64,000 bases of DNA from Cherax quadricarinatus (lineage: Eukaryota; Arthropoda; Malacostraca; Decapoda; Parastacidae): positions 21,231,216-21,295,215 of the forward strand of contig NC_091352.1 in assembly GCF_038502225.1 (NCBI RefSeq), given 5' to 3'. How positions within the stretch are numbered: position 1 is the first letter of the stretch; every line of letters starts with the position of its first letter. This document shows positions 1 to 64,000 of this stretch, one piece after another. The position numbers and the translations under genes are program-made. The notes under the pieces were generated by a model. That model saw only the letters and a program-made list of their open reading frames with translations. It was not told where the DNA came from and did no database searches.

Positions 1-1727
1 TTCCTATGTCCTTTCTAAATCTAAACTTATCTAATTTAAATCCATTACTGCGGGTTCTCTCTTGGAGAGACATCCTCAAGACCTTATTAATATCCCCTTT
101 ATTTATACCTATCTTCCACTTATACACTTCGATCAGGTCTCCCCTCATTCTTCGTCTAACAAGTGAATGTAACTTAAGAGTCTTCAATCTTTCTTCATAA
201 GGAAGATTTCTAATGCTATGTATTAATTTAGTCATCCTACGCTGAATGTTTTCTAACGAATTTATTTCCATTTTGTAATACGGAGACCAGAACTGAGCTG
301 CATAATCTAGGTGAGGCCTTACTAATGATGTATAAAGCTGCAGTATGATCTCTGGACTTCTGTTGCTTACACTTCTTGATATAAATCCCAGTAATCTATT
401 TGCCTTATTACGTACGCTTAGACATTGCTGTCTTGGTTTAAGGTTGCTGCTCACCATAACCCCAAGTCCTTTTCGCAATCTGTATGGCTAAGTTCTACAT
501 CATTTAACTTATAAGTACTAGGGTTATGGGCACTCCCAAGCTTCAGAACATTGAACTGCATCTGCCACTTTTCTGACCAAGAATAGAGTTTGTTTAAATC
601 CTCCTGAAGTTCCATAACATCTACGTTTGAATCAATTATCCTACCTATCTTTGTGTCATCGGCGAATTTGCTCATATCACTAGTAATTCCCTCATCAAGA
701 TCATTGATATATATTATAAACAACAACGGGCCCAAGACTGATCCCTGTGGAACGCCACTTGTTACAGATCCCCACTCGGATTTAACCCCATTTATGGACA
801 CTCTCTGCTTCCTGTCAGTGAGCCATGACTCGATCCACGAGAGCACTTTTCCCCCAATGCCATGAGCTGCCACTTTCTTTAACAGTCTATGGTGCGGAAC
901 TCTATCAAAAGCCTTACTAAAATCTAAGTAAATAATATCAAATTCTTTATTGTGGTCAACAGCCTCAAAAGCTTTACTGAAGAAAGTTAATAAATTAGTT
1001 AGACAAGACCTGCCTCTTGTGAATCCATGCTGAGTATCATTAATCAAGCTATGCTTATCGAGATGGCTTCTTATAATCTCAGCTATAATCGACTAGTAAT
1101 TTGCCTACAATTGAGGTCAGGCTTATTGGGCGGTAATTTGACGGTAACGACTTGTCCCCTGTTTTAAAAATAGGAGTTACATTAGCCATCTTCCACATAT
1201 CAGACACTACACCTGTTTGAAGAGATAAATTAAAAATATTAGTTAATGGTTCACAGAGTTCCATTTTGCATTCCTTAAGAACCCTTGAAAAAACCTCATC
1301 AGGACCCGGCGACTTATTTTGCTTCAGTCTATCTGACTGTGATGTTACATAATTTATCTTCTTCTAGCCCACTGTAAAAATTAATTACTGGAATATTGTT
1401 AATGTCTTCCTGTGTAAAAACTGAGAGAAAATAATTATTTAAAATCAAGCACATTTCATTCTCTTTGTCAGTAAGGTGCCCATAGTTATTTTTAAGGGGA
1501 CCTATCTTATCTCTAACTTTTGTTCTATAGACCTGGAAAAAACTTTTTGGGTTAGTTTTAGAATCCCTAGCAACTTTAATTTCATAGTCCCTTTTAGCTT
1601 TTCTTATCCCCTTTTTAATGTCCCTCTTAATGTCAATATACTGATTCATAAGATGATCCTCACCTCTTTTGATACGCCTATAAATTCCTTTCTTATGCCC
1701 TAGTAGATATTTGAGCCTATTATTCAT
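1..1727 (-). pseudogene. CR1-like ORF2, linker and reverse transcriptase part (frameshifted)
   Basis: Three open stretches in different frames tile one RT protein: 1727-1329 (linker, with PKSFFQVYRTKVRDKIGPL), 1264-1079 (RT start, with the NYRPISLTS block) and 1047-451. The last has the palm motif DFSKAFDRVPHHRLL, the SGVPQGSVLGPLLF block and catalytic FADD within KFADDTKIGRI. The 1264-1079 piece is in the same frame as the endonuclease ORF upstream, while the other two are shifted, so at least two indels separate them. Below 451 the thumb and C-terminal region continues without a long ORF. In life this protein would make cDNA at a nicked chromosomal target. Here it is a decayed copy. Confidence 0.85.
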
Positions 1728-12505: not shown

Positions 12506-12789
12506 GTGAGAGACAACTAAGACGACGTGTATGTGTAGTGGCAGGAGTCAGGTGAAATGTTGCGTGGGTAGCACTAGTAGTGTAGTAGTAGTAATAGTAG
12601 TGGTGAGACGTTGTTGGGTTAGAGAAGCACCTATTGACATCATGTTACAGTAGTCTCCAGAATGGGTAATATCCTGTTGATCAGCAATCAGATAGTGTAA
12701 CTACCGGATTTTTGATGGATAGTGTTACCAACTACAATAAGGGTAGCTTGTATGCACTATGGTAATCTTAAATAGTCTTCCTTGATTGC

Positions 12790-13875
12790 TAGTCTAGCCT
12801 CACTGAATCTCATAAGGATAGACTAGTATATATAGAACACACGCATTTTTGCGGTCATCATTGCTGCAAGCATTTTTGTGTTCTCTGATCCTAATGTCCA
12901 GAGAACTGGCTGTTTCCCCCACATACACTGTCACACACCCCACTTGGTATGGTGTATACTCTTGCACTCGTGCCAGAGTCATTCTTGGGTTTTTTATACA
13001 AAGTTTCTAATAATAGTTGAAGAGCTGGTGGATATTTAAGTAATTTTCTGTCAAAAATTCTTGAAACGTTAGTTGCAACGTCGCTGACCCTAACTTGGAG
13101 GCTTTTCTTCGACTTGATTCGTGCTGCACGTTTCCTGGAGTCACGTGTGAAGTGTAGGGGGAAGTGTAGTGAACTAAAAGAATGTGATGTATGTGCATTC
13201 TTCGAGGAATTGTGGACTGGAAATTCTGTAGGCTCTCAGAAAGAAGCCTGTAACTACTCCTCTTAGTTCTGGTGTGATGGTCAGAGAAGATATGTAGAAG
13301 ATCGTTCTTGTATGTAGGTTTACGGTAGACTCTAAAAGAAAGTTTGTTTTCATCAGTAAGAAAACGTCGAGAAATGGTAAATGGTTATCCTTCTCCTCCT
13401 CTGGTGTAAATTTAATGGTAGGTTACAGAGTGTTGATGGTGTTGATGTCACGGAAAACTGGATTTTTGGGTACAATGACCAACGTAATTGAGGATCCGTC
13501 TGGACTATAATGGTCCTTCATATGTAAATTGGATAGTACTGCACTCAGGGGTGAGCCCATGGCTAACCCGAATAGTTGTTTATACTTATTGCCTTCGAAC
13601 CTATAACAGTTATAACGAGCACATAGTTCGAAAAAGGTTCACAAAATCCTGACAAGGTACAGGTAACTATGTATCATCGTTAATCATTTTGCGAAGAAGA
13701 TCAATGGCTTGATCAACTGGAACATTGGTGAAGTTTCGATAAATATTTCGCCAAATCCCCTGCTAGCCTGTGTGAGGCGCTACTAATACCAGATGTAATC
13801 GGTCTCTTAGGCACATTAGGTTTATGGGTTCCTACCAACCCTAATCCTGGCTAACTTGGGTTTGGTAGGGACGAG
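12790..13875 (-). pseudogene. Penelope-like element (PLE) polyprotein remnant: RT then GIY-YIG endonuclease
   Basis: The minus strand in shifting frames gives NKYKQLFGLAMGSPLSAVLS at about 13620-13540 (the GLPMGSPLSP block of Penelope RT), followed by SNLHMKDH. Further on, 12982-12800 encodes YTPYQVGCVTVYVGETASSL then DIRIREHK. That is the GIY-YIG pattern (Y-x-V, then YVGET, then arginine and HK) that ends PLE proteins. RT followed by GIY-YIG is the defining order of endonuclease-positive PLEs. Many stops and frameshifts make it non-functional. It is a plausible source of the machinery that moved the hammerhead repeats. Confidence 0.78.
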
Positions 13876-19619: not shown

Positions 19620-21050
19620 TTCCAGTCACGGTATTGTGCCTTTTTGTTATTTAACAAATCAAGATCTCAGTCGCACAACGCCATCACATCAATACACTCT
19701 CAAGCGCACGTAACTTACCACAACCACAAAACACGCAACTCATTAACTCCCGCCTTCCACATAAAGTTCCGAACATACCTTAGGGTGCTACCACAGGATG
19801 AGTCCAACCCCTTGCTGCCTTACCCCCCACCCCCTCAGTTGCAATAACCACTGTACTGTAAGACTTCTATAACTTGCAGGGAAAACGGTACCCCACCTCC
19901 CACCATAAAGAAGTCTATTCCTACAAGACGTTCTATAAATACCCGCTGCAATCACCTTAACCCTAACTGCTCCCTCGGTTTCCCTCATACCCCATGAAAT
20001 ATATAGGAAATCAGCCACCACGTACAGTATTGCTCTTCCCCCACTGAGAAACCCTAAAACCCTCCCCAAACACGTACGAACCTCTTCCAATGTTTCACAA
20101 AAATAAACCGCATGAAACAGTTTCTTCTAGACCGCAACGTAAGCAATTCGCCTCCCTTACCAAACCCATCCTGCTTAAAACCGATTTTGATGCTAAAATT
20201 CCCATGACGAATCTGTACACTAATTCGAGAACCCTCGGCGCCAACTTAAGCTTACAAAAACCGTTCCATATAATCGATGTAACTATTTGTATATACCTGA
20301 ATAAACTTACTTACCAGCGGCCAAGATGAACCACCCGTGTGAGATTAACCTGAGGACAAGTAATTAGGAATTAGTTCTTACAGTGGTAAAATGCTGGGAA
20401 ATTGCGGTTGTATCCCTTTATTAATGATCTGTACTGAAATTTAAGGACTAGTAATGCACGTGTAACATCCACAGTGAATAACTTTTTCACTAGTATAAAG
20501 AATGATTAGCACAATGTAAACTTTTGACTGGAGGTAAAGAGAAAAGAGCTTGTCATTGTCATTAGCGTGCACGAGGGACGATTTAGAAATGGGATTTGAA
20601 ATGGAAAGATCTTACGGAAGGACGAAAATTGGTAAGTTACCAGGAAAATTTGCTGGAGGTTTAAGAGCAGCACTAACTGTGGAAAGGGTTACTAATTGGC
20701 ATTGAAATTAAGATGGGTAATTAGTGGGAAACCGGAAATGCCCATAAGATACGGACGTCTGCTAATATACCTGTATGAGACCAGAACACTTTCTTTGCTA
20801 CACGGCTGTTTTGGTTTAATCAAGAAAAAATCTGATACGAGTTCTTGGCATAAGGTGATTCTGAATAAATAGTTTAGAAGAAAGACAATATATGGGTATC
20901 TTTATTTTAAAGTGAAGATACCCAAAGGTTGTACAAGTGTCCTATAAGATATTAAATAAAAGGACACACGTACCTTGTGATTAAATAACCCAATTTCCAC
21001 AGATTTAAATGACTTGAATCGTCCTTAATCGCCATTTCTAACACAAACAG
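19620..21050. other. Unassigned DNA, no gene
   Basis: Short ORFs at 19599-20329 lack domains. A reduced hammerhead-repeat tail (GGGTATCTTTATTTTAAAGT, TACAAGTGTCC) is visible near 20890-20950. Confidence 0.5.
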
Positions 21051-21310
21051 AAAAATAACAATGCAGCTTCGTCATCTCTGAAGTATTAGCAAGAATAGTC
21101 TTCAAGACAATAAAACCTGCTATCACATAGCTACTACGAGTTATATTACGCTTTTACATCTCACTCTAATACTTATTTACACCCTCTGTGTCCCTGTATG
21201 TAATGGCTCGACAAAGATCCTGGAGAGCGAAACGTTACAACAATAAAATGTCTCATTAGGTGTACTTGTGTCCTTTCACCTAACATAATGTTGGTAGACT
21301 TACCGACAAT
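21050..21310 (+). mobile_element. PLE 3' end fragment
   Basis: GAAGTATTAGCAAGAATAGTCTTCAAGACAATAAA corresponds to the end of the PLE coding region seen at 25925. GTGTCCCTGTATGTAATGGC and a hammerhead-like relic (GATCCTGGAGAGC GAAACGTTACAAC) follow at 21205-21245, then a terminus with TACCGACAATATTA. This links the hammerhead-type tail directly to a PLE 3' end. A sister copy is at 59445-59640. Confidence 0.65.
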
Positions 21311-23470: not shown

Positions 23471-23835
23471 GCGCCAAAAACAAGAGATTATCTCGTAACT
23501 TCACATTATTTCAAGTGTCAACGGAGAAGAATATCGAAGGAAGGAAAATGTCAGGTCCTCTACTTTGTTTCTGGCTTATGACTGTCTCCTGACAACTTCA
23601 TTTTTGACCTGTCTTTTGGCTTTCTCCTCGCATCTCAACCTAACCCTTCTTAAGACTTTCCCCTCAAAATTTCTCCAGACCTGTTTTCTGTCGTTTCCCC
23701 TCTTCTCTCTTAACCATGACTAAATGGATCTAAATGGATCATAATCTAGTGTGAAGTTTCTTGTGAAATATTCTAAGCTACGACAGAATGAGTTTTATTT
23801 ATAGAGCTAATTTTGTGCCTTCCTTTCCTGGACAG

Positions 23836-24046
23836 GTGTCGTGGGTGCGTCACCGAGACATTCACCTGCTGACAGTGGGACGGTTCACCTACACATCAGA
23901 TGGACGCTTCTCAGCTCGCCACACTCCGGGCTCTGAGGACTGGCTTCTCATGATACACTACCTGCAGAAGAGAGATGCTGGCATGTACGGGTGTCAGATC
24001 TCTACCACACCTCCCAGAAGCCACCTCATCCATCTGTCTGTTGTAG
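23836..24046 (+). CDS. Dpr-family immunoglobulin V-domain exon (host gene, internal exon)
   Basis: The exon follows a pyrimidine-rich acceptor (CCTTCCTTTCCTGGACAG) and ends at a consensus donor (GTAG, then GTGAGT). It is 211 bases, entered in phase 0 and left in phase 1, the usual phase for Ig exon borders. The 70 codons begin VSWVRHRDIHLLTVGRFTYT and contain SDGRF, GSEDWLLMIHYLQKRDAGMY and the cysteine of YGCQIS. This is the second half of the first Ig domain of Dpr (defective proboscis extension response) proteins, neuronal surface receptors that bind DIP partners during synaptic wiring. The partner exon with the first cysteine is not visible here, so introns must be large. Which dpr paralogue cannot be told. 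The ATG at 23788 is intronic and not a start. Confidence 0.93.
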
Positions 24047-24094
24047 GTGAGTGTTACATCCCCACCATAACTCCCATCCGTATAATATCTGTCA

Positions 24095-35439: not shown

Positions 35440-37730
35440 GTTGATGGTGGTGGTGGTGTTGTTGGTGTTGGTGTTGGTGTTGTTGTTGGTGGTGTTGTTG
35501 GTGGTGGTGTTGTTGGTGGTGGTGTTGTTGTTGGTGGTGGTGGTGGTGGTGGTGGTGGTGGTGGTGGTGGTGTTGTTGGTGGTGTTGTTGGTGGTGGTGT
35601 TGTTGGTGTTGGTGTTGTTGGTGGTGGTGTTGTTGGTGGTGGTGTTGTTGGTGGTGGTGTTGTTGGTGGTGGTGTTGTTGGTGGTGGTGTTGTTGGTGGT
35701 GTTGTTGGTGGTGGTGTTGTTGATGGTGGTGTTGTTGGTGGTGGTGTTGTTGATGGTGGTGGTGGTGTTGTTGATGGTGGTGGTGGTGGTGGTGGTGTTG
35801 TTGATGGTGGTGGTGGTGGTGGTGGTGTTGTTGATGGTGGTGGTGGTGGTGGTGGTGTTGTTGATGGTGGTGGTGGTGGTGGTGGTGTTGTTGATGGTGG
35901 TGGTGGTGGTGGTGGTGTTGTTGATGGTGGTGGTGGTGTTGTTGATGGTGGTGGTGGTGTTGTTGGTGGTGGTGGTGGTGTTGTTGGTGGTGGTGGTGGT
36001 GTTGTTGGTGGTGGTGGTGGTGGTGGTGTTGATGGTGGTGGTGGTGGTGTTGATGGTGGTGGTGGTGGTGGTGTTGTTGATGGTGGTGGTGGTGGTGGTG
36101 GTGTTGTTGATGGTGATGGTGGTGGTGGTGACGTTGTTGTTGATGGTGTTGATGGTGGTGGTGACGTTGTTGTTGATGGTGTTGATGGTGGTGGTGGTGT
36201 TGATGGTGGTGGTGGTGTTCATGGTGGTGGTGGTGTTCATGGTGGTGGTGGTGTTCATGGTGGTGGTGGTGTTCATGGTGGTGGTGGTGTTCATGGTGGT
36301 GGTGTTGATGGTGGTGGTGGTGGTGTTGATGGTGGTGGTGGTGTTGATGGTGGTGGTGGTGGTGTTGATGGTGGTGGTGGTGGTGTTGATGGTGGTGGTG
36401 GTGGTGTTGATGGTGGTGGTGGTGGTGTTGATGGTGGTGGTGGTGGTGTTGATGGTGGTGGTGGTGGTGTTGATGGTGGTGGTGGTGGTGTTGATGGTGG
36501 TGGTGGTGGTGTTGACGTTGGTGGTGGTGGTGTTGACGTTGGTGGTGGTGGTGGTGTTGACGTTGGTGGTGGTGGTGGTGTTGACGTTGGTGGTGGTGGT
36601 GGTGTTGACGTTGGTGGTGGTGGTGGTGTTGACGTTGGTGGTGGTGGTGGTGTTGACGTTGGTGGTGGTGGTGGTGTTGACGTTGGTGGTGGTGGTGGTA
36701 TTGTTGTTGGTGGTGGTGGTGGTATTGTTGTTGGTGCTGCTGGTGGTATTGTTGTTGGTGCTGCTGGTGGTATTGTTGTTGGTGTTGCTGGTGGTATTGT
36801 TGTTGGTGTTGCTGGTGGTATTGTTGTTGGTGTTGCTGGTGGTATTGTTGTTGGTGTTGCTGGTGGTGTTGTTGTTGAGGTTGGTGTTGTTGGCTGTGGT
36901 GGTGATTTTGTTGTTGTTGTTGTTGGTGGTGGTGGAGATTGTTCTCTGTTATTGTTCTTTTTGGTGGTGGTGTCATCGCCATGTTTTTTATTATTGGTTG
37001 TCGTCGTTGTTTTTGTTGGTTGTCAATATTGTTTCTGTTGTTATTAGTGATGGTGTTGTTGGCGGTATTATTGGTGGTGGTGGTGGTGGTGTTCTTGGTG
37101 ATGCTTGTAGTGTTGTTTGTGATTTTAATGGCGATGGTGGTGATGGTGATGTTGGAGGTATTGCTGTTGTCGATGGTATTGATGGTGACGTTGTTGGTGA
37201 TGCTGTTAATGTTGATCTTGTTGGTAGTGCTATTGGTGATTTTATTGGTGATGACTGCAGTACTGTTGATGGTGCTGGTGATCCTGTTGATGTTGCTGCT
37301 GGTGGTGCTTATGGTGGTGTTCTTTGTGTTGATGCCAAAAGTGTTGTTGGTGATTTTATTGGTGATAGTGGTGGTGCCGTTGTTGATGATTTTATTAGTG
37401 ACAGTGGTGGTGCTATTGTTGATGTTCTTGGTAGTGATGCTAGAAGTGTTGTTGGCGATTTTATTGGTGATAGTGGTGGTGCCGTTGTTGGTGATTTTAT
37501 TGGTGACAGTGGTGGTGCTATTGTTGTTCTTCGTGGTGATGCTAGAAGTGTTGGTGATTTTATTGGTGATAGTGGTGGTGCCGTTGGTGATTTTATTGGT
37601 GACAGTAGTGGTACTGTTGTTGGTGTTCATGGTGGTGATATTGGTAGTGTTGTTGATGATTATACTTGTGGTGGTGATATTGGTAGTGTTGTTGATGATT
37701 ATGCTTGTGGTGGTGAGATTGCTGGTGTAA
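35440..37730. repeat. 2.3-kb GGT/GTT trinucleotide array with minisatellite layers
   Basis: It is a nearly pure G/T plus strand. Blocks are GGT runs separated by GTTGTT or GTTGAT, then GTTCATGGT, GTTGACGTTGGT and GGTGCTGCT blocks, grading into mixed NNT codon-like DNA at 36900-37730. Period-3 structure leaves long ORFs on both strands (780 codons of Val/Leu on plus, 771 codons of Asn/Thr then His/Gln on minus). These follow from the repeat. Confidence 0.95.
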
Positions 37731-38877: not shown

Positions 38878-39183
38878 TGTTTGAAATCGTGACATTACGA
38901 TTTCACGAGTCAAAAAGTACAGGATTGTAGCGAATTTAAGAACCTTGTCAGTTTTCTAAACCATTTATCACATATTAAATTACGAATCACTGAATTTTGG
39001 GTAATTACTGGGGAATGTCTCTTCCGGTTGGCATCAGTCTTGCAGTGTGGGGGATTTTTTATCAAAGAAAAACTTAGCACTGTTTTTGGGGTTTCTAAGG
39101 ATAAATTTGTAATCTAAATTGTTGGACATTCAGCACCTGAACCAGTAAACAGCGGGTTGGTAGGTAAGACACATAGGCAACAG

Positions 39184-39229
39184 TATTCCGAAACGTTTCG
39201 CCTACACAGTAGGCTTCTTCAGTCGAATA
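39184..39229 (-). ncRNA. Hammerhead ribozyme motif, canonical, minus arm
   Basis: This is the exact reverse complement of 39475-39520, with the same core CTGAAGA (39222-39216) and stems. The two arms could also pair with each other in one transcript, which would compete with ribozyme folding. Confidence 0.75.
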
Positions 39230-39474
39230 CAGAAAGTAGGCAGGAACAGTAGAGATGTGAAGACGATGTAATCAGTCCATCACCCTTGAAGTCGTAGAAT
39301 TTGAGGTTGTCAGTCCCTCGGCCTGGAGACGTTCAGTTCTATAGTCAGATAGTTCCTGACTATGGAACTGAACTTCTCCAGGCTGAGGGACTGACAACCT
39401 CAAATTCTACGACTTCAAGGGTGATGGACTGATTACATCGTCTTCACATCTCTACTGTTCCTGCCTACTTTCTG

Positions 39475-39520
39475 TATTCGACTGAAGAAGCCTACTGTGT
39501 AGGCGAAACGTTTCGGAATA
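39475..39520 (+). ncRNA. Hammerhead ribozyme motif, canonical, best copy in the window
   Basis: Stem I 5' arm TATTCGA (39475-39481) pairs with TCGGAATA (39513-39520), seven pairs with one bulged G. The core is CTGAAGA (39482-39488). Stem II is AGCCTACTGTGTAGGC (6 bp), GAA at 39505-39507, stem III ACGT (39508-39511). The cleavage residue is T39512. All invariant bases are present. The four-base self-complementary stem III suggests a dimeric active form, as known for some PLE and satellite hammerheads. In monomer units the next ribozyme would lie in a neighbouring copy. Confidence 0.78.
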
Positions 39521-39789
39521 AAGTTGCCTAACTGTTGCCTATGTGTCTTACCTACCAACCTGTCGGTATTGTATACCATTTTGATGTTCAAACAGCGGGT
39601 TACTGTACTTAGAGAAAAGTTAGAGTTCTTTTCGATCTTCATAGATGCCAATTTTTAAACTATTAAAGTTATTGAGATAATTTAAATACGCGTTTTCTTG
39701 CATTACTTTGCCATTGCATCATTCGATCGGCTTCAAACCTTTCAACACTGATAATTTAACCATGCAACTTTTAAACAGCTTCAAGTTTG

Positions 39790-40564: not shown

Positions 40565-42425
40565 GCATATTTGATTTGTCGCCTGGGGAAGAATACCTAT
40601 ACAGACTTGCTGCCTTGGGAAGAATGTTTATACAGACTTGGTGCCTGGCGAAGAATGTCTATACAGACTTGCTGCCTGGGGAAGAATGTTTATACTGACT
40701 TGCTGCCTGGGGAAGAATGTTTATACAGACTTGCTGACTGGGGAAGAATGTTTATACAGACTTGCTGACTGGGGAAGAATGTTTATACAGACTTGGTGCC
40801 TTGGGAAGAATGTCTATACAGACTTGCTGCCTGGGGAAGAATGTCTATACAGACTTGCTGCCTGGGGAAGAATGTCTATACAGACTTTCTGCCTGGGGAA
40901 GAATGTCTATACAGACTTTCTGCCTGGGGAAGAATGTCTATACAGACTTTCTGCCTGGGGAAGAATGTCTATACAGACTTGCTGCCTGGGGAAGAATGTC
41001 TATACAGACTTGCTGCCTGGTGAAGAATGCCTATTCAGACTTGCTGCCTGGGGAAGAATGTCTATACAGACTTGCTGCCTGGGGAAGAATGTCTATACAG
41101 ACTTGCTGCCTGGGGAAGAATGTCTATACAGACTTGCTGCCTGGGGAAGAATGTCTATACAGACTTTCTGCCTGGGGAAGAATGTCTATACAGACTTTCT
41201 GCCTGGGGAAGAATGTCTATACAGACTTTCTGCCTGGGGAAGAATGTCTATACAGACTTGCTTCCTGGTGAAGAATGCTTATACAGACTTGCTGCCTGGT
41301 GAAGAATGTCTATACAGACTTGCTTCCTGGTGAAGAATGTCTATACAGACTTGCTTCCTGGTGAAGAATGTCTATACAGACTTGCTTCCTGGTGAAGAAT
41401 GTCTATACAGACTTGCTGCCTGGGGAAGAATGTTTATACTGACTTGCTGCCTGGGGAAGAATGTTTATACAGACTTGCTGACTGGGGAAGAATGTTTATA
41501 CAGACTTGCTGACTGGGGAAGAATGTTTATACAGACTTGGTGCCTTGGGAAGAATGTCTATACAGACTTGCTGCCTGGGGAAGAATGTCTATACAGACTT
41601 GCTGCCTGGGGAAGAATGTCTATACAGACTTGCTGCCTGGTGAAGAATGCCTATTCAGACTTGCTGCCTGGGGAAGAATGTCTATACAGACTTGCTGCCT
41701 GGGGAAGAATGTCTATACAGACTTTCTGCCTGGGGAAGAATGTCTATACAGACTTTCTGCCTGGGGAAGAATGTCTATACAGACTTTCTGCCTGGGGAAG
41801 AATGTCTATACAGACTTTCTGCCTGGGGAAGAATGTCTATACAGACTTGCTGCCTGGGGAAGAATGTCTATACAGACTTGCTGCCTGGTGAAGAATGCCT
41901 ATTCAGACTTGCTGCCTGGGGAAGAATGTCTATACAGACTTGCTGCCTGGGGAAGAATGTCTATACAGACTTGCTGCCTGGGGAAGAATGTCTATACAGA
42001 CTTGCTGCCTGGGGAAGAATGTCTATACAGACTTTCTGCCTGGGGAAGAATGTCTATACAGACTTTCTGCCTGGGGAAGAATGTCTATACAGACTTTCTG
42101 CCTGGGGAAGAATGTCTATACAGACTTGCTTCCTGGTGAAGAATGCTTATACAGACTTGCTGCCTGGGGAAGAATGTCTATACAGACTTTCTGCCTGGTG
42201 AAGAATGTCTATACAGACTTGCTTCCTGGTGAAGAATGTCTATACAGACTTGCTTCCTGGTGAAGAATGTCTATACAGACTTGCTTCCTGGTGAAGAATG
42301 TCTATACAGACTTGCTGCCTGGTGAAGAATGTCTATACAGACTTGCTGCCTGGGAAAGAATGCCTGTGCAGACTTGCTGCCTGGGAAAGAATGCCTGTGC
42401 AGACTTGCTGCCTGGGAAATGGCTT
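40565..42425. repeat. 31-bp minisatellite, about 60 units, with higher-order repeats
   Basis: The unit is GAAGAATGTCTATACAGACT plus TGCTGCCTGGG. Variants (TTTCTGCC, GCTTCC, TTTATAC, CCTATTCAG) are ordered in blocks. The TGTTTATACT variant at 40687 returns at 41431, exactly 24 units later, and CCTATTCAG variants are spaced by 20 and 8 units. Because 31 is not a multiple of 3, each frame reads the same 31-residue pattern; the ORFs here are artefacts. Confidence 0.96.
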
Positions 42426-45609: not shown

Positions 45610-48345
45610 AGTCATTAAGGGAGGAGCAGTGCATCCAACTTAGTCGCACAAGCTAGTCAGGTCCAACTCACACCTACCCACACCCACTCATGTATTTATC
45701 CAACCTATTTTTAAAACTACACATCGTCTTAGTGTTCATGACGGTACTCGGGAATTTGTTCCACTCATCGACAACTCTATTACCAAACCAGTGCTTTCCT
45801 ATATCCTTCCTGAATCTGATTTTTTTTCCAATTTGAAGCCATTGCTGTGAGTCCTGTCTATGTTACATATTTTTAGCACGTTATTTACATCCCCTTTATT
45901 AATTCCTGTTTTCCATTTATACACCTCGGTCATATCCCCCTAATTCTTCGCCTTTCGAGAGAGTGCAGGTTCAGGGCCCTCAGTCTATCCTCATAGGGAA
46001 GATTTCTGATACATGGGATCAACTTTGTCATCCTCCTCTGTACGTTTTCCAGAGCATTTATATCCATTCTGTAATACGGCGACCAAAACCGAGCAGCATA
46101 GTCTAAATGAGGCCTAACCAAAGATATATAGAGTTGAAGAACAACGTAAGGACTTCTATTATTTATACTTCTTGCTATGAAGCCAAGGACTCTGTTAGGT
46201 TCATTGCGAACACTAATGCACTGTTGTCTTGGTTTTAGATTACTACTAACCAAAACTCCTAAATCCTTTTCGCAATCCGTAATATTAAGATCTACATTAT
46301 TTAGTTTATATGTCCAACATTTAGAATTTTGCATTTGTCTATATTAAACTGCATCTACCACTCCTCCGACCACTGCATCAGTTTATTCAAATCATCCTGG
46401 AGTGCTCTAATATCCTCATTAGAATGAATTGGACGGCGTATTTCGGTGTCATCAGCAAATTTGCTTATGTCGCTATTTATTCCTTCATCATTGTCCTTTA
46501 TGTAGATTGTGAACAAAGGGCCCAACACTGACGTCTGTGGAACACCGCTTGTGACGCTTCCCCGCTCTGATTTCTCTCCATTTATGCAAACTCTGCTGTC
46601 TATTCGTCAACCATGCCTAAACCCAGGAAAAAATTTCTCCTATTCAGTGTGCCTAAAGTTTCCTCAATAGCCTCTGATGTGGAACTATCGAAAGCCTTAC
46701 TAAAGTCCATATACTCAACGTCATTTTCACTACCATGATCTACCTCCTCAAACACCTTAGTGAAAAAAGTTAGTAAATTCGTAAGACAGGAACGCCCCTT
46801 TGTAAAACCGTGTTGAGATTCATTAATCAGTTTATGCCTATCAAGATGGCTACGAATTGCTTCGGCAATTATTGATTCCATAAATTTTCCCACTATGGAG
46901 GTAAGGCTTATTGGTCTATAGGTCGAAGCTAAGGACCTGTCACCTGCCTTGTAAATAGGTATTACATTTGCCATTTTCCACTTATCAGGCACTATGCCAG
47001 TTTGTAGTGATATGTTAAAAAGATTAGCCAAAGGTATGCTAAGTTCCTCTTTACATTCCTTTAACACCCTTGCAAACAGTTCATCAGGACCTGGGAATTT
47101 GTTAGGTTTTAATTTCTCTATTTGTCTGAGGACCATGTCACTAGTTACCGCAATCGTGCATTGTTTATTATTATCCTGTTCTACGTAATCTATTATTTCT
47201 GGAATTTCGCTAGTATCTTCCTGAGTAACAACTGAGAGAAAGTAAGAATTGAAAATTTCGTACATATCCTTATCACTGTCAGTGAACTAACCTGAGTTAC
47301 TCTTTAGTGAGCCTATCTTGTCCATAATCTTGCTTCTGTATTCCTGAAAGAACCCTTTTGGGTTTGTCTTTGAATCCCTTGCGACCTTAGCCTCATAATC
47401 CCTTTTTGCTTTTCGTTTTCCTTTTTTTTCTCTCTCTTTAATTGAATATATTGATTACTTAACTGCCCATCCCCTATTTTGATACGCCTGTATATGCCTC
47501 TCTTTTGACCAATGAGATGCTTTGATCTATTGTTCATCCATTGGGGATCAATTTTGTTAGATTTAATTTCCCTACTCGGAACAAAAGTTGTCTGGGCAGC
47601 TAGAACTATTCTCTGAAAAACGTCATATTGGCAACCAACACCAGCTACCTGACCCATAGCGAGGACATCCCAGTTTAGCTCACCCAGGTAATTTTTCAGT
47701 CCCATGAAATCGGCCAAGCGAAAGTCTGGGACAGATTTGATTGCAGTTATCCGGGAAACTCCATGATATATTGAAAATAAGTGATCTGTTATCATTTTCC
47801 CCTAGCTCATCATTAACCTCAAGATTATTAACTAGTGATTCTTTGTTGGCAAGAACCAAGTAGAATGTTTCCTCTAGTTGGTTCTGTCACAAACTGTTTT
47901 AAAAAGCAATCCTGAACCGTATCAAGAAAGTCACTAGACTAAAGATTTCCTGTCACATTGTTCCAATCAATTTGTCTAAAGTTAAAATCTCCCATTAACA
48001 CAACATTTTCATATCTAGATGCCTTATGAATTTCATCCCATAGCAGTTTAATGCATTCGCTATCAAGGTGTGGGGGCCTATATATTACACCCAAAATTAA
48101 CTTCTCACGACCCTCGAGAAACTGTAGCCAAATGTTCGATGTTTCTAATCTTATATCTTGTCTAACACAACAATTTAAATTATCTCTGACATACATCGCC
48201 ACTCCACCACCCTTCCTGCTGACCCTATCAGTATGGAATAGTTTATAACCCGGTTTGTTGCATTCAGAGGGGAATTCTCTATCTTTCAAGTTGAACCAGG
48301 TCTCTGTTATAGCAATAATATCTTGCACTTGCAAGTAATCTTAGC
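45610..48345 (-). mobile_element. CR1-like LINE, copy 4 (endonuclease to 3' end, broken)
   Basis: Minus-strand pieces: 48334-47939 is endonuclease (ITETWFNLKDREF, RGGGVAMYVRDNLNCC, ILGVIYRPP, LMGDFNFRQIDWN). 47795-47313 is the linker (WMNNRSKHLIGQKRGIYRRI). 47265-46600 is RT (KPNKFPGPDELFARVLKECK, PIYKAGDRSLASTYRPISLT, QHGFTKGRSCLTNLL, YMDFSKAFDSST). The 46500 region has FADDTEI in broken frame, and 46334-45930 is thumb and C-terminus (ISLVRPHLDYAARFWSPYY). ORF1 is absent (5' truncation near 48345). It is closer to copy 2 than to copy 1. Confidence 0.87.
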
Positions 48346-51633: not shown

Positions 51634-53400
<1,767 letters not shown>

Positions 53401-63429: not shown

Positions 63430-63957
63430 TTATTTGTCCAATGTATTATTAAATTCTTCCCAAATTCTATTAATTATAAATGGATCTAATTTATATAAAA
63501 CAAAGGAAATATTCATATTATTGTCAAAACTGCTTTTTATGAAACAAGATTCAATTACATTCCTGTCGACCATGGACTTTCTTGATACTACTTTCTCAAG
63601 TTTTTGAAAATCAATTGGATGGTTAAAATCTCTCACATGAATAAATAGAGCATTGAAATCTTGTCCAGTTCTAATGCTATATTTATGTTGTTTTAATCTT
63701 AGTCCGAGACTTTTACCAGTTTGACCGTAATAAACTTTATCGCAAATTTTACAAGGAATCTTATAGACACATCCATCAGCATTTTGGGGGGAATTCTTTA
63801 TCAAAAGTTTTTTTACTATATCAAGATATTTAAATACAACTTTGATATTAAAAGTCTTAAGAAGAGAAGGTATATCAACCAAGTTTTCACGGTAAGGGAG
63901 AACCAACATATTTTTAGTTGAATAAGGTTGGTTGTCCCTTTTTGGATTGTAATACAA
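63430..63957 (-). CDS. Penelope-like element protein, C-terminal GIY-YIG endonuclease (partial)
   Basis: 175 codons are open, probably continuing upstream beyond a frameshift or the window edge. The linker (MLVLPYRENLVDIPSLLKTF) is followed by GCVYKIPCKICDKVYYGQTG, the GIY-YIG core (Y-K-I then V-Y-Y-G) with the paired cysteines typical of PLEs. Next come LRLKQHKYSIRTG (arginine, QHK block), ALFIHVRDFNHPIDF, and VIESCFIKS with the candidate catalytic glutamate. This nuclease nicks target DNA for PLE insertion. The domain looks intact, unlike the copies at 12800, 24780 and 25687. The first Met is only the first in frame, because the RT would precede it outside the window. Confidence 0.86.
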   Translation of the reverse strand: MYYNPKRDNQPYSTKNMLVLPYRENLVDIPSLLKTFNIKVVFKYLDIVKKLLIKNSPQNADGCVYKIPCKICDKVYYGQTGKSLGLRLKQHKYSIRTGQDFNALFIHVRDFNHPIDFQKLEKVVSRKSMVDRNVIESCFIKSSFDNNMNISFVLYKLDPFIINRIWEEFNNTLDK

Positions 63958-64000
63958 GTATTTCTAGCAATTTTAAAAGATTTATCAGTTACGTTTCTTG

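Follow-up and report, generated by a model that had tools for sequence, protein, structure and literature searches.

The 64,000-nucleotide stretch of Cherax quadricarinatus DNA analysed here (the window) contains scattered copies of what are probably minimal, dimer-type type I hammerhead ribozymes. They appear to be located in the pseudo-LTRs (pLTRs) of Penelope-like elements (PLEs), often as solo, head-to-head or tandem pLTRs without an ORF. In this reading, to which we assign a probability of about 0.78, the ribozymes are weakened, depend on a dimer partner or on protein and process PLE transcripts. A conserved core, covarying stems I and II and a covarying pair 3-8, an extra A10, the word ACGU, linkage to PLEs, a TATA box, a tail and one target-site duplication are directly evident from the sequence.

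The 10-nt word GAAACGTTTC occurs five times exactly in the window against 0.01 expected occurrences. With up to one mismatch it occurs 15 times against 1.32 expected, the maximum over 100 shuffles being 4. This bears out the initial annotation, which had regarded the scattered word as non-random. GAAACGTTTC is the 3' portion of a hammerhead-like motif with the order CTGANGA, an extra A, a stem II hairpin of 4-6 bp, GAA, ACGU and H17, and with the arms of stem I outermost. The five copies named at the outset are real (39482, 22548 and 23420 on the plus strand, 39222 and 12489 on the minus strand), and stems I and II pair in them as described. The exact word, which had been ascribed to all five, is present in three, while 22548 carries GAAAGGTCTA and 23420 carries GAAACTTTTC. 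The cleavage positions predicted at T39512 and C22576 are compatible with H17, as judged from the sequence. The extra A after CTGANGA had been overlooked: stem II in these copies comprises 4-6 bp when the insertion is allowed and 0 bp when it is not. A first scan without the A10 register returned a single match, on the strand opposite the 21.2-kb relic, and recovered no other copy; a scan with the insertion register recovered the copies thus missed. A fuzzy scan gave 11 matches in the window versus 0-3 per window in ten first-order Markov windows. Chance origin of the motif in the window is excluded.

The loose pattern CTGANGAN{7,30}GAAACGTTTC was also matched exactly in viral and prokaryote contigs, with at least 238 matches listed. 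A stem II of at least 4 bp, in either register, was formed by 5 of these 238 versus all three exact copies of the pattern in the window, and the viral and prokaryote matches were rejected as chance-like. The strict motif pattern had no match in the viral contigs searched. All comparative evidence is drawn from one genome.

A covariance model was built from 12 distinct copies, five of them from the window, which match by construction. It found 16 copies in the window with 27.6-65.5 bits (E <= 0.001), in line with the roughly 15 copies or relics proposed initially. In 100 control loci (1,061,665 bases), picked among the 238 viral and prokaryote loci of the loose pattern, the single match at E <= 1 scored 18.8 bits (E 0.7). 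Eight of the 16 copies are free of defects at the tested core positions, a U3-A8 pair being allowed, and eight carry core defects:

39471..39527, plus strand: main hammerhead copy, no tested core defect, predicted cleavage after T39512; 61.3 bits; stems I and II are the minimum-energy fold
39177..39233, minus strand: hammerhead copy, no tested core defect; 51.0 bits
22537..22591, plus strand: hammerhead copy, no tested core defect, stem III word AGGU non-palindromic, H17 is C22576; 65.5 bits
23409..23463, plus strand: hammerhead copy, no tested core defect; 61.2 bits
49452..49505, minus strand: hammerhead copy with U3-A8 core pair, no defect; 61.1 bits
12447..12499, minus strand: hammerhead copy without defect, leading a direct pair with a spacing of 79 nt; 57.4 bits
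12367..12421, minus strand: hammerhead relic (3-8 pair C/C), second member of that direct pair; 34.4 bits
4733..4789, minus strand: hammerhead copy, no tested core defect; 54.3 bits
30212..30265, minus strand: hammerhead copy with U3-A8, free of core defects; of the three stem II pairs counted, 2 are formed; faces 30912 head to head; 49.6 bits
30912..30965, plus strand: hammerhead relic (A15.1 to G); 45.5 bits
10060..10114, plus strand: hammerhead relic (3-8 pair C/A); 54.4 bits
24278..24330, plus strand: hammerhead relic; 38.1 bits
10685..10737, minus strand: hammerhead relic (A9 and A10 lost); 31.3 bits
61028..61076, plus strand: hammerhead relic (core deleted); 31.1 bits
11182..11238, minus strand: hammerhead relic; 28.2 bits
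21197..21251, plus strand: hammerhead relic that follows a same-strand GIY-YIG relic at 70 nt; 27.6 bits

Three plus-strand copies (22548, 23420 and 24287) lie around an exon-like stretch at about 23830-24047 (plus strand) that codes for an Ig V-set segment and presumably resembles arthropod Dpr proteins. The protein was read by eye; its score with Pfam PF07686 is 25.8 bits against a cut-off of 26. The three copies are spaced 872 and 867 bp apart, and the last two are 64.5% similar upstream over 217 columns, perhaps an old partial tandem. Elsewhere in the window there are a 1.5-kb TGG-type triplet array (35445-36935) and a minisatellite with some 55 copies of a 31-bp unit (40581-42300), both overlapped by long, probably spurious open frames. 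Pfam RVT_1 matches mark reverse transcriptases, LINE-like by appearance, at 451-1092 (minus), 46600-47286 (minus) and 51847-53154 (plus).

Covariation among the 12 copies of the model supported the hammerhead fold. Of all cells, 96.9% were paired, as compared to 36.5-61.1% in slid controls, and double-sided changes were seen in 6 of 8 pairs, which was reached by 3 of 500 shuffles. None of the 500 shuffles was as high in cells paired, double-change cells or score; the count of further pair types was not unusual, with 127 of 500 shuffles as high. All four pairs of stem I were changed on both sides, while in stem II this applied to one of three, the other two being one-sided or invariant. Core pair 3-8 was C-G in seven copies and U-A in five, with no mismatch. 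Descriptor matches in 278,695 bases of the same genome numbered 95, with a 3-8 pair of C-G in 72, U-A in 17 and six other combinations once each; two of the stretches (L254 and L255) overlap, so that a few copies are counted twice among these 95 and among the 101 model matches. Covariation of 3-8 has been described in natural hammerheads, and activity in vitro has been reported for U3-A8-type pairs (excerpt of PMC3088659).

In 55 distinct rows from this genome, H17 was T 44 times, C 10 times and A once, but never G. U4, G5, A6, A9, G12-A14, A15.1 and U16.1 were kept in 52-55 rows, A15.1 and U16.1 being invariant, and N7 was free; the rows were selected by the model, and this conservation is in part built in. 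Conserved core and covarying stems agree with the hammerhead-type motif and the type I topology of the initial annotation. The hammerhead without helix III was the minimum-energy fold in two of five monomers (T6, the main copy, and ENA, from L271), and its stems were part of the minimum-energy fold of the ENB monomer; for the A4 and C4 monomers another fold was predicted as preferred. For a dimer of the main copy the double hammerhead is nested and energetically favourable, yet it is not the lowest predicted structure (-22.7 kcal/mol versus -32.7 kcal/mol with the whole 10-nt palindrome paired). Judged on these sequence data, the copies in the window very probably represent a genuine ribozyme family. 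Its kind is already known, and the variant seen here is unusual and extremely abundant.

Because conservation and covariation extend over several subfamilies, they indicate selection on the fold while master copies were active. An unlikely alternative is that the copies are fossils, i.e. a former ribozyme carried along by descent after A10 and the loss of helix III had killed it. The eight window copies with core defects fit this idea, many copies may stem from few masters, and in PAc (Poseidon of Anolis carolinensis) hammerhead mutants leave insertion in vitro unaffected (excerpt of PMC11167929). On the other hand, subfamilies that differ in stem I, stem II and the 3-8 pair have retained arms that pair and a position 17 other than G, which speaks against mere descent.

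The motif departs from a canonical hammerhead, as which it had been classified, in three respects: the extra A10, a helix III that is unclosable within one molecule and the lack of a match to Rfam hammerhead models. Helix III is reduced to the self-complementary ACGU directly before H17 (GAA-ACGU-H), and the very short stem III noted initially holds to this extent. Its letters are kept in nearly all of the 55 distinct rows (A 55, C 53, G 52, U 55). No loop is possible after ACGU, thus helix III can only form between two molecules or two copies, ACGU with ACGU. The unpaired A10 between A9 and stem II is an A in 15 of the 16 window copies and in 99 of the 101 model matches in this genome.

The hammerhead models of Rfam 15 had no match in the window at the gathering score or at E <= 10, none in 101 bases around the main copy and none in 25.8 kb of DNA from this genome that is rich in intact copies (L270, L273 and L277), there too at E <= 10. 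Other Rfam matches in the searched stretches were all below the gathering score of their own family. All copies thus fail the check by Rfam covariance models which the initial annotation had proposed. In our judgement the Rfam test is unsuitable for a reduced hammerhead, since it demands the canonical form, whereas covariation supports the reduced fold. The missing Rfam match would also suit a structured signal that resembles a hammerhead and is no ribozyme, for instance a site at which a PLE protein binds or primes; the PLE endonuclease and reverse transcriptase act near the pLTR-ORF junction (excerpt of PMC11167929). We consider this very improbable. The observed conservation is the hammerhead's own pattern, with its core, a free N7, a non-G H17 and a covarying 3-8 pair, even if this pattern is partly built in.

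The proposed link to PLEs was corroborated by GIY-YIG ORFs upstream of the hammerheads and by pLTR features. ENA and ENB are two families of GIY-YIG endonuclease ORFs with Pfam GIY-YIG scores above the cut-off. A hammerhead on the same strand follows 70-276 nt downstream of 8 of 11 distinct C-terminal ends of the ENA/ENB type, as compared to 1 of 11 on the opposite strand. Seven of the 11 ends are from stretches that were chosen for holding hammerheads (L271, L273, L277 and L278; 6 of 7 linked), so the figure is inflated; among the ends in the window, 2 of 4 are linked. In stretch L271 the order is GIY-YIG ORF, TATA box, hammerhead and tail, and in a 378-bp tandem array TATATAA is located 130 nt upstream of the next hammerhead. 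The endonuclease features of the window are:

12667..13236, minus strand: relic of a PLE GIY-YIG endonuclease, lying upstream of the 12499 and 12421 hammerheads; matched by the L271 endonuclease in tblastn
20974..21127, plus strand: PLE GIY-YIG relic that precedes the 21197 hammerhead relic; matched by the L271 endonuclease in tblastn
63430..63963, minus strand: PLE GIY-YIG endonuclease of a different family, no hammerhead found nearby; Pfam GIY-YIG E 7.2e-4, 20.2 bits, below the cut-off of 22.6

The 63.4-kb PLE belongs to a third abundant GIY-YIG family with 59,069 first-look candidates, of which 150 were scored. No hammerhead above 16 bits was found in 31 of 33 stretches of this family, where copies too diverged for the model would escape, and the hammerheads were therefore rejected as a part of this PLE. 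Three of the 11 ENA/ENB ends likewise had no downstream hammerhead. Together with the third family this suggests that some PLEs here may do without the ribozyme. The third family (L281-L313) includes six listed places with an open frame of exactly 818 aa and several head-to-head pairs. The lack of hammerheads in the third family, as seen by this model, contrasts with the statement that all available PLEs carry one (excerpt of the review PMC6155905).

The unit at 39 kb is arranged as follows:

39147..39158, no strand: left target-site duplication AAACAGCGGGTT, a 12-mer present at just two places in the window
39159..39589, plus strand: inserted unit of 431 bp, an inverted pLTR piece without tail followed by a pLTR piece with tail; ends from the duplication and the common left end
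39557..39589, plus strand: PLE-type tail beyond the end of the inverted repeat, with TGTCGGTATTGTATACC at 39561-39577
39590..39601, no strand: right target-site duplication AAACAGCGGGTT

This insertion is bounded by a 12-bp direct repeat and made up of two head-to-head pLTR pieces, whose arms (39169-39348 and 39356-39535) are 96% complementary; the tail of about 33 nt is present on the right piece only. Random placements shared a 12-mer in 107 of 20,000 trials, and the repeat pair at 39 kb in addition abuts both ends of the unit exactly. The left end GGTAGGTAAGACACATAGGCAACA is common, with up to one mismatch, to this unit and to units near 4.88 and 61.5 kb. A target-site duplication of the 4.7-kb unit was sought, but not found. 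The family length of about 330 bp given by the initial annotation corresponds to the distance from one inverted ribozyme to the other at 39 kb, whereas the inserted unit measures 431 bp. The label 'retrozyme-like' found no support, as the main copy is a head-to-head inverted pair with the features of a PLE pLTR.

Direct pairs are also present. In the window one pair is 79 nt and one 501 nt apart, and diverged copies are about 870 bp apart. Of the first 100 places listed genome-wide, which lie at the start of one contig, 71 have a neighbour within 600 bp; the direct neighbours among them include distances of 378 bp (three times) and 401 bp (twice). Two 378-bp tandem units of this genome are identical at 378 of 378 positions. 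Such tandems are what would be expected of non-LTR retrozymes, small non-autonomous repeats whose hammerheads release unit-length RNAs that are circularised and reinserted by PLE proteins; repeats of about 150-450 bp have been published for them, and PLEs are suspected of moving them (excerpt of PMC7229834). Metazoan non-LTR retrozymes resemble the copies here in having a hammerhead in small tandem repeats of similar length. Yet the published ones have canonical type I hammerheads in tandem repeats without LTRs, and no PLE pLTR parts are mentioned in that excerpt, whereas the copies here lack helix III, carry A10 and sit in a repeat unit that is a PLE pLTR with TATA box and tail. Furthermore, head-to-head neighbours within 600 bp outnumber direct ones (26 versus 14, with 5 tail to tail, in the first 100 matches listed). 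A retrozyme family is thus improbable, slightly more so than fossil hammerheads, and we favour ribozymes residing in PLE pLTRs.

The motif is not confined to the window. In the genome of 3.95 Gb the loose motif matched 125,469 places, while its reversed control matched 96. CTGANGA copies with C3-G8 and A10 amounted to at least 106,021 exact matches with strict stem II and GAAACGTTTC, against none for the reversed control. The U3-A8 form reached at least 35,138 copies (control 4), the mismatched C3-A8 form 2,345 (control 5) and CTGANGA without A10 64 (control 2), all in a looser frame than the strict pattern of the C3-G8 count, which is therefore understated in this comparison. U3-A8 is a compensatory core pair that replaces C3-G8 in a second large set. 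As no Rfam hammerhead model matches despite more than 100,000 exact copies, surveys based on Rfam would undercount such ribozymes.

Four places of the U3-A8 form that were fetched for their 31-bp spacing (L314-L317; G000:C1 5460, 4617860, 4910480 and 7411730) proved to be near-identical, near-perfect palindromes. The dyad AAGCTT is located immediately 5' of the core, and the arms span at least about 90 bp, up to the ends of the fetched stretches. Because their outer flanks differ, we read them as insertions of one small ribozyme-centred mobile unit, of roughly 180 bp as judged by eye. Two features stand out as unusual: A10 is near-universal, and small palindromic elements have the ribozyme at their centre.

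Cervera and De la Pena (2014) and Lunse, Weinberg and Breaker (2017) reportedly described small hammerhead variants of Penelope-like elements. These variants share with the copies here the type I topology, the core, the reduced helix III, the location in pLTRs and the expectation of dimers. What may set the copies here apart is the extra A10, present in almost all of those seen, together with a large subclass that has U3-A8. Minimal PLE hammerheads without helix III are described as possibly dimeric and of unknown role (excerpts of PMC7761336 and PMC6155905). In the excerpts consulted, no A10-like insertion in PLE hammerheads is described, and the term hammerhead ribozyme was absent from the crustacean literature among the matches listed. 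A10 in PLE hammerheads may already be on record, and we make no claim of a first report.

An unpaired A between A9 and G10.1 is also present in the plus hammerhead of chrysanthemum chlorotic mottle viroid, CChMVd(+), where it moderately lowers the rate (excerpt of PMC3705267). Removal of the extra nucleotide from a viroid hammerhead increased cleavage, and infectivity was lost (excerpt of PMC11014351). Unlike the copies here, the ribozyme of this viroid is part of an infectious circular RNA and has no PLE link. By analogy with the viroid hammerhead, we infer that A10 has a weakening role.

PAc, which is active in vitro, resembles the elements here by a hammerhead at the pLTR-ORF region, a tail and a GIY-YIG protein. 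Its hammerhead cut only with protein and was dispensable for insertion in vitro (excerpt of PMC11167929); this demonstrated assistance by protein sets PAc apart from the copies here. The Penelope of Adineta vaga has an inverted, shorter left pLTR, a 31-bp tail and duplications of 8-10 bp; head-to-head is the commonest arrangement and is explained by self-priming (excerpt of PMC3846280). The 39-kb unit shares the head-to-head pLTRs with a shorter left copy, the tail and a target-site duplication, and palindromes at the junction are a further common feature. In contrast to the copies here, the word hammerhead is absent from the main text of PMC3846280.

Taken together we propose the following mechanism for ribozymes in PLE pLTRs. 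A PLE transcript would start at the promoter of a pLTR, often run through several pLTRs and so carry several ribozymes. Since one molecule is unable to close helix III, cleavage would need either two ribozymes paired via ACGU or the help of a PLE protein. The partners may be tandem copies within a single transcript or belong to separate transcripts; the two ribozymes would pair via ACGU, swap their stem I arms and each cleave the other at H17. A PLE protein may assist, as it does for the Anolis element. Both A10 and the lack of helix III would slow down cleavage and thereby let multimeric PLE transcripts last long enough to serve as templates. Processing would then occur late, only in crowded or protein-bound RNA, with the advantage that long transcripts persist as messenger and template and are trimmed late. 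Against this mechanism, head-to-head copies are able to fold as long hairpins, which would hide the ribozyme.

Why PLEs keep hammerheads is a standing question, and their activity and role have been called a mystery (excerpt of PMC7761336). With more than 100,000 exact copies, several subfamilies and one core insertion, common to nearly all copies and of known effect in a viroid, this genome permits a direct test of the effect of A10 on cleavage and on dimer dependence. A broader and clearly speculative view is that the genome harbours a large class of slow hammerheads, whose masters keep A10 and a loop-less helix III. They would be switched on by tandem pairing or by a PLE protein and thus keep transcripts multimeric up to the formation of the retrotransposition complex. 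The palindromic mini-elements of about 180 bp and the tandem pLTR arrays without ORF might since have become mobile on their own, and as such they may link autonomous PLEs to retrozymes.
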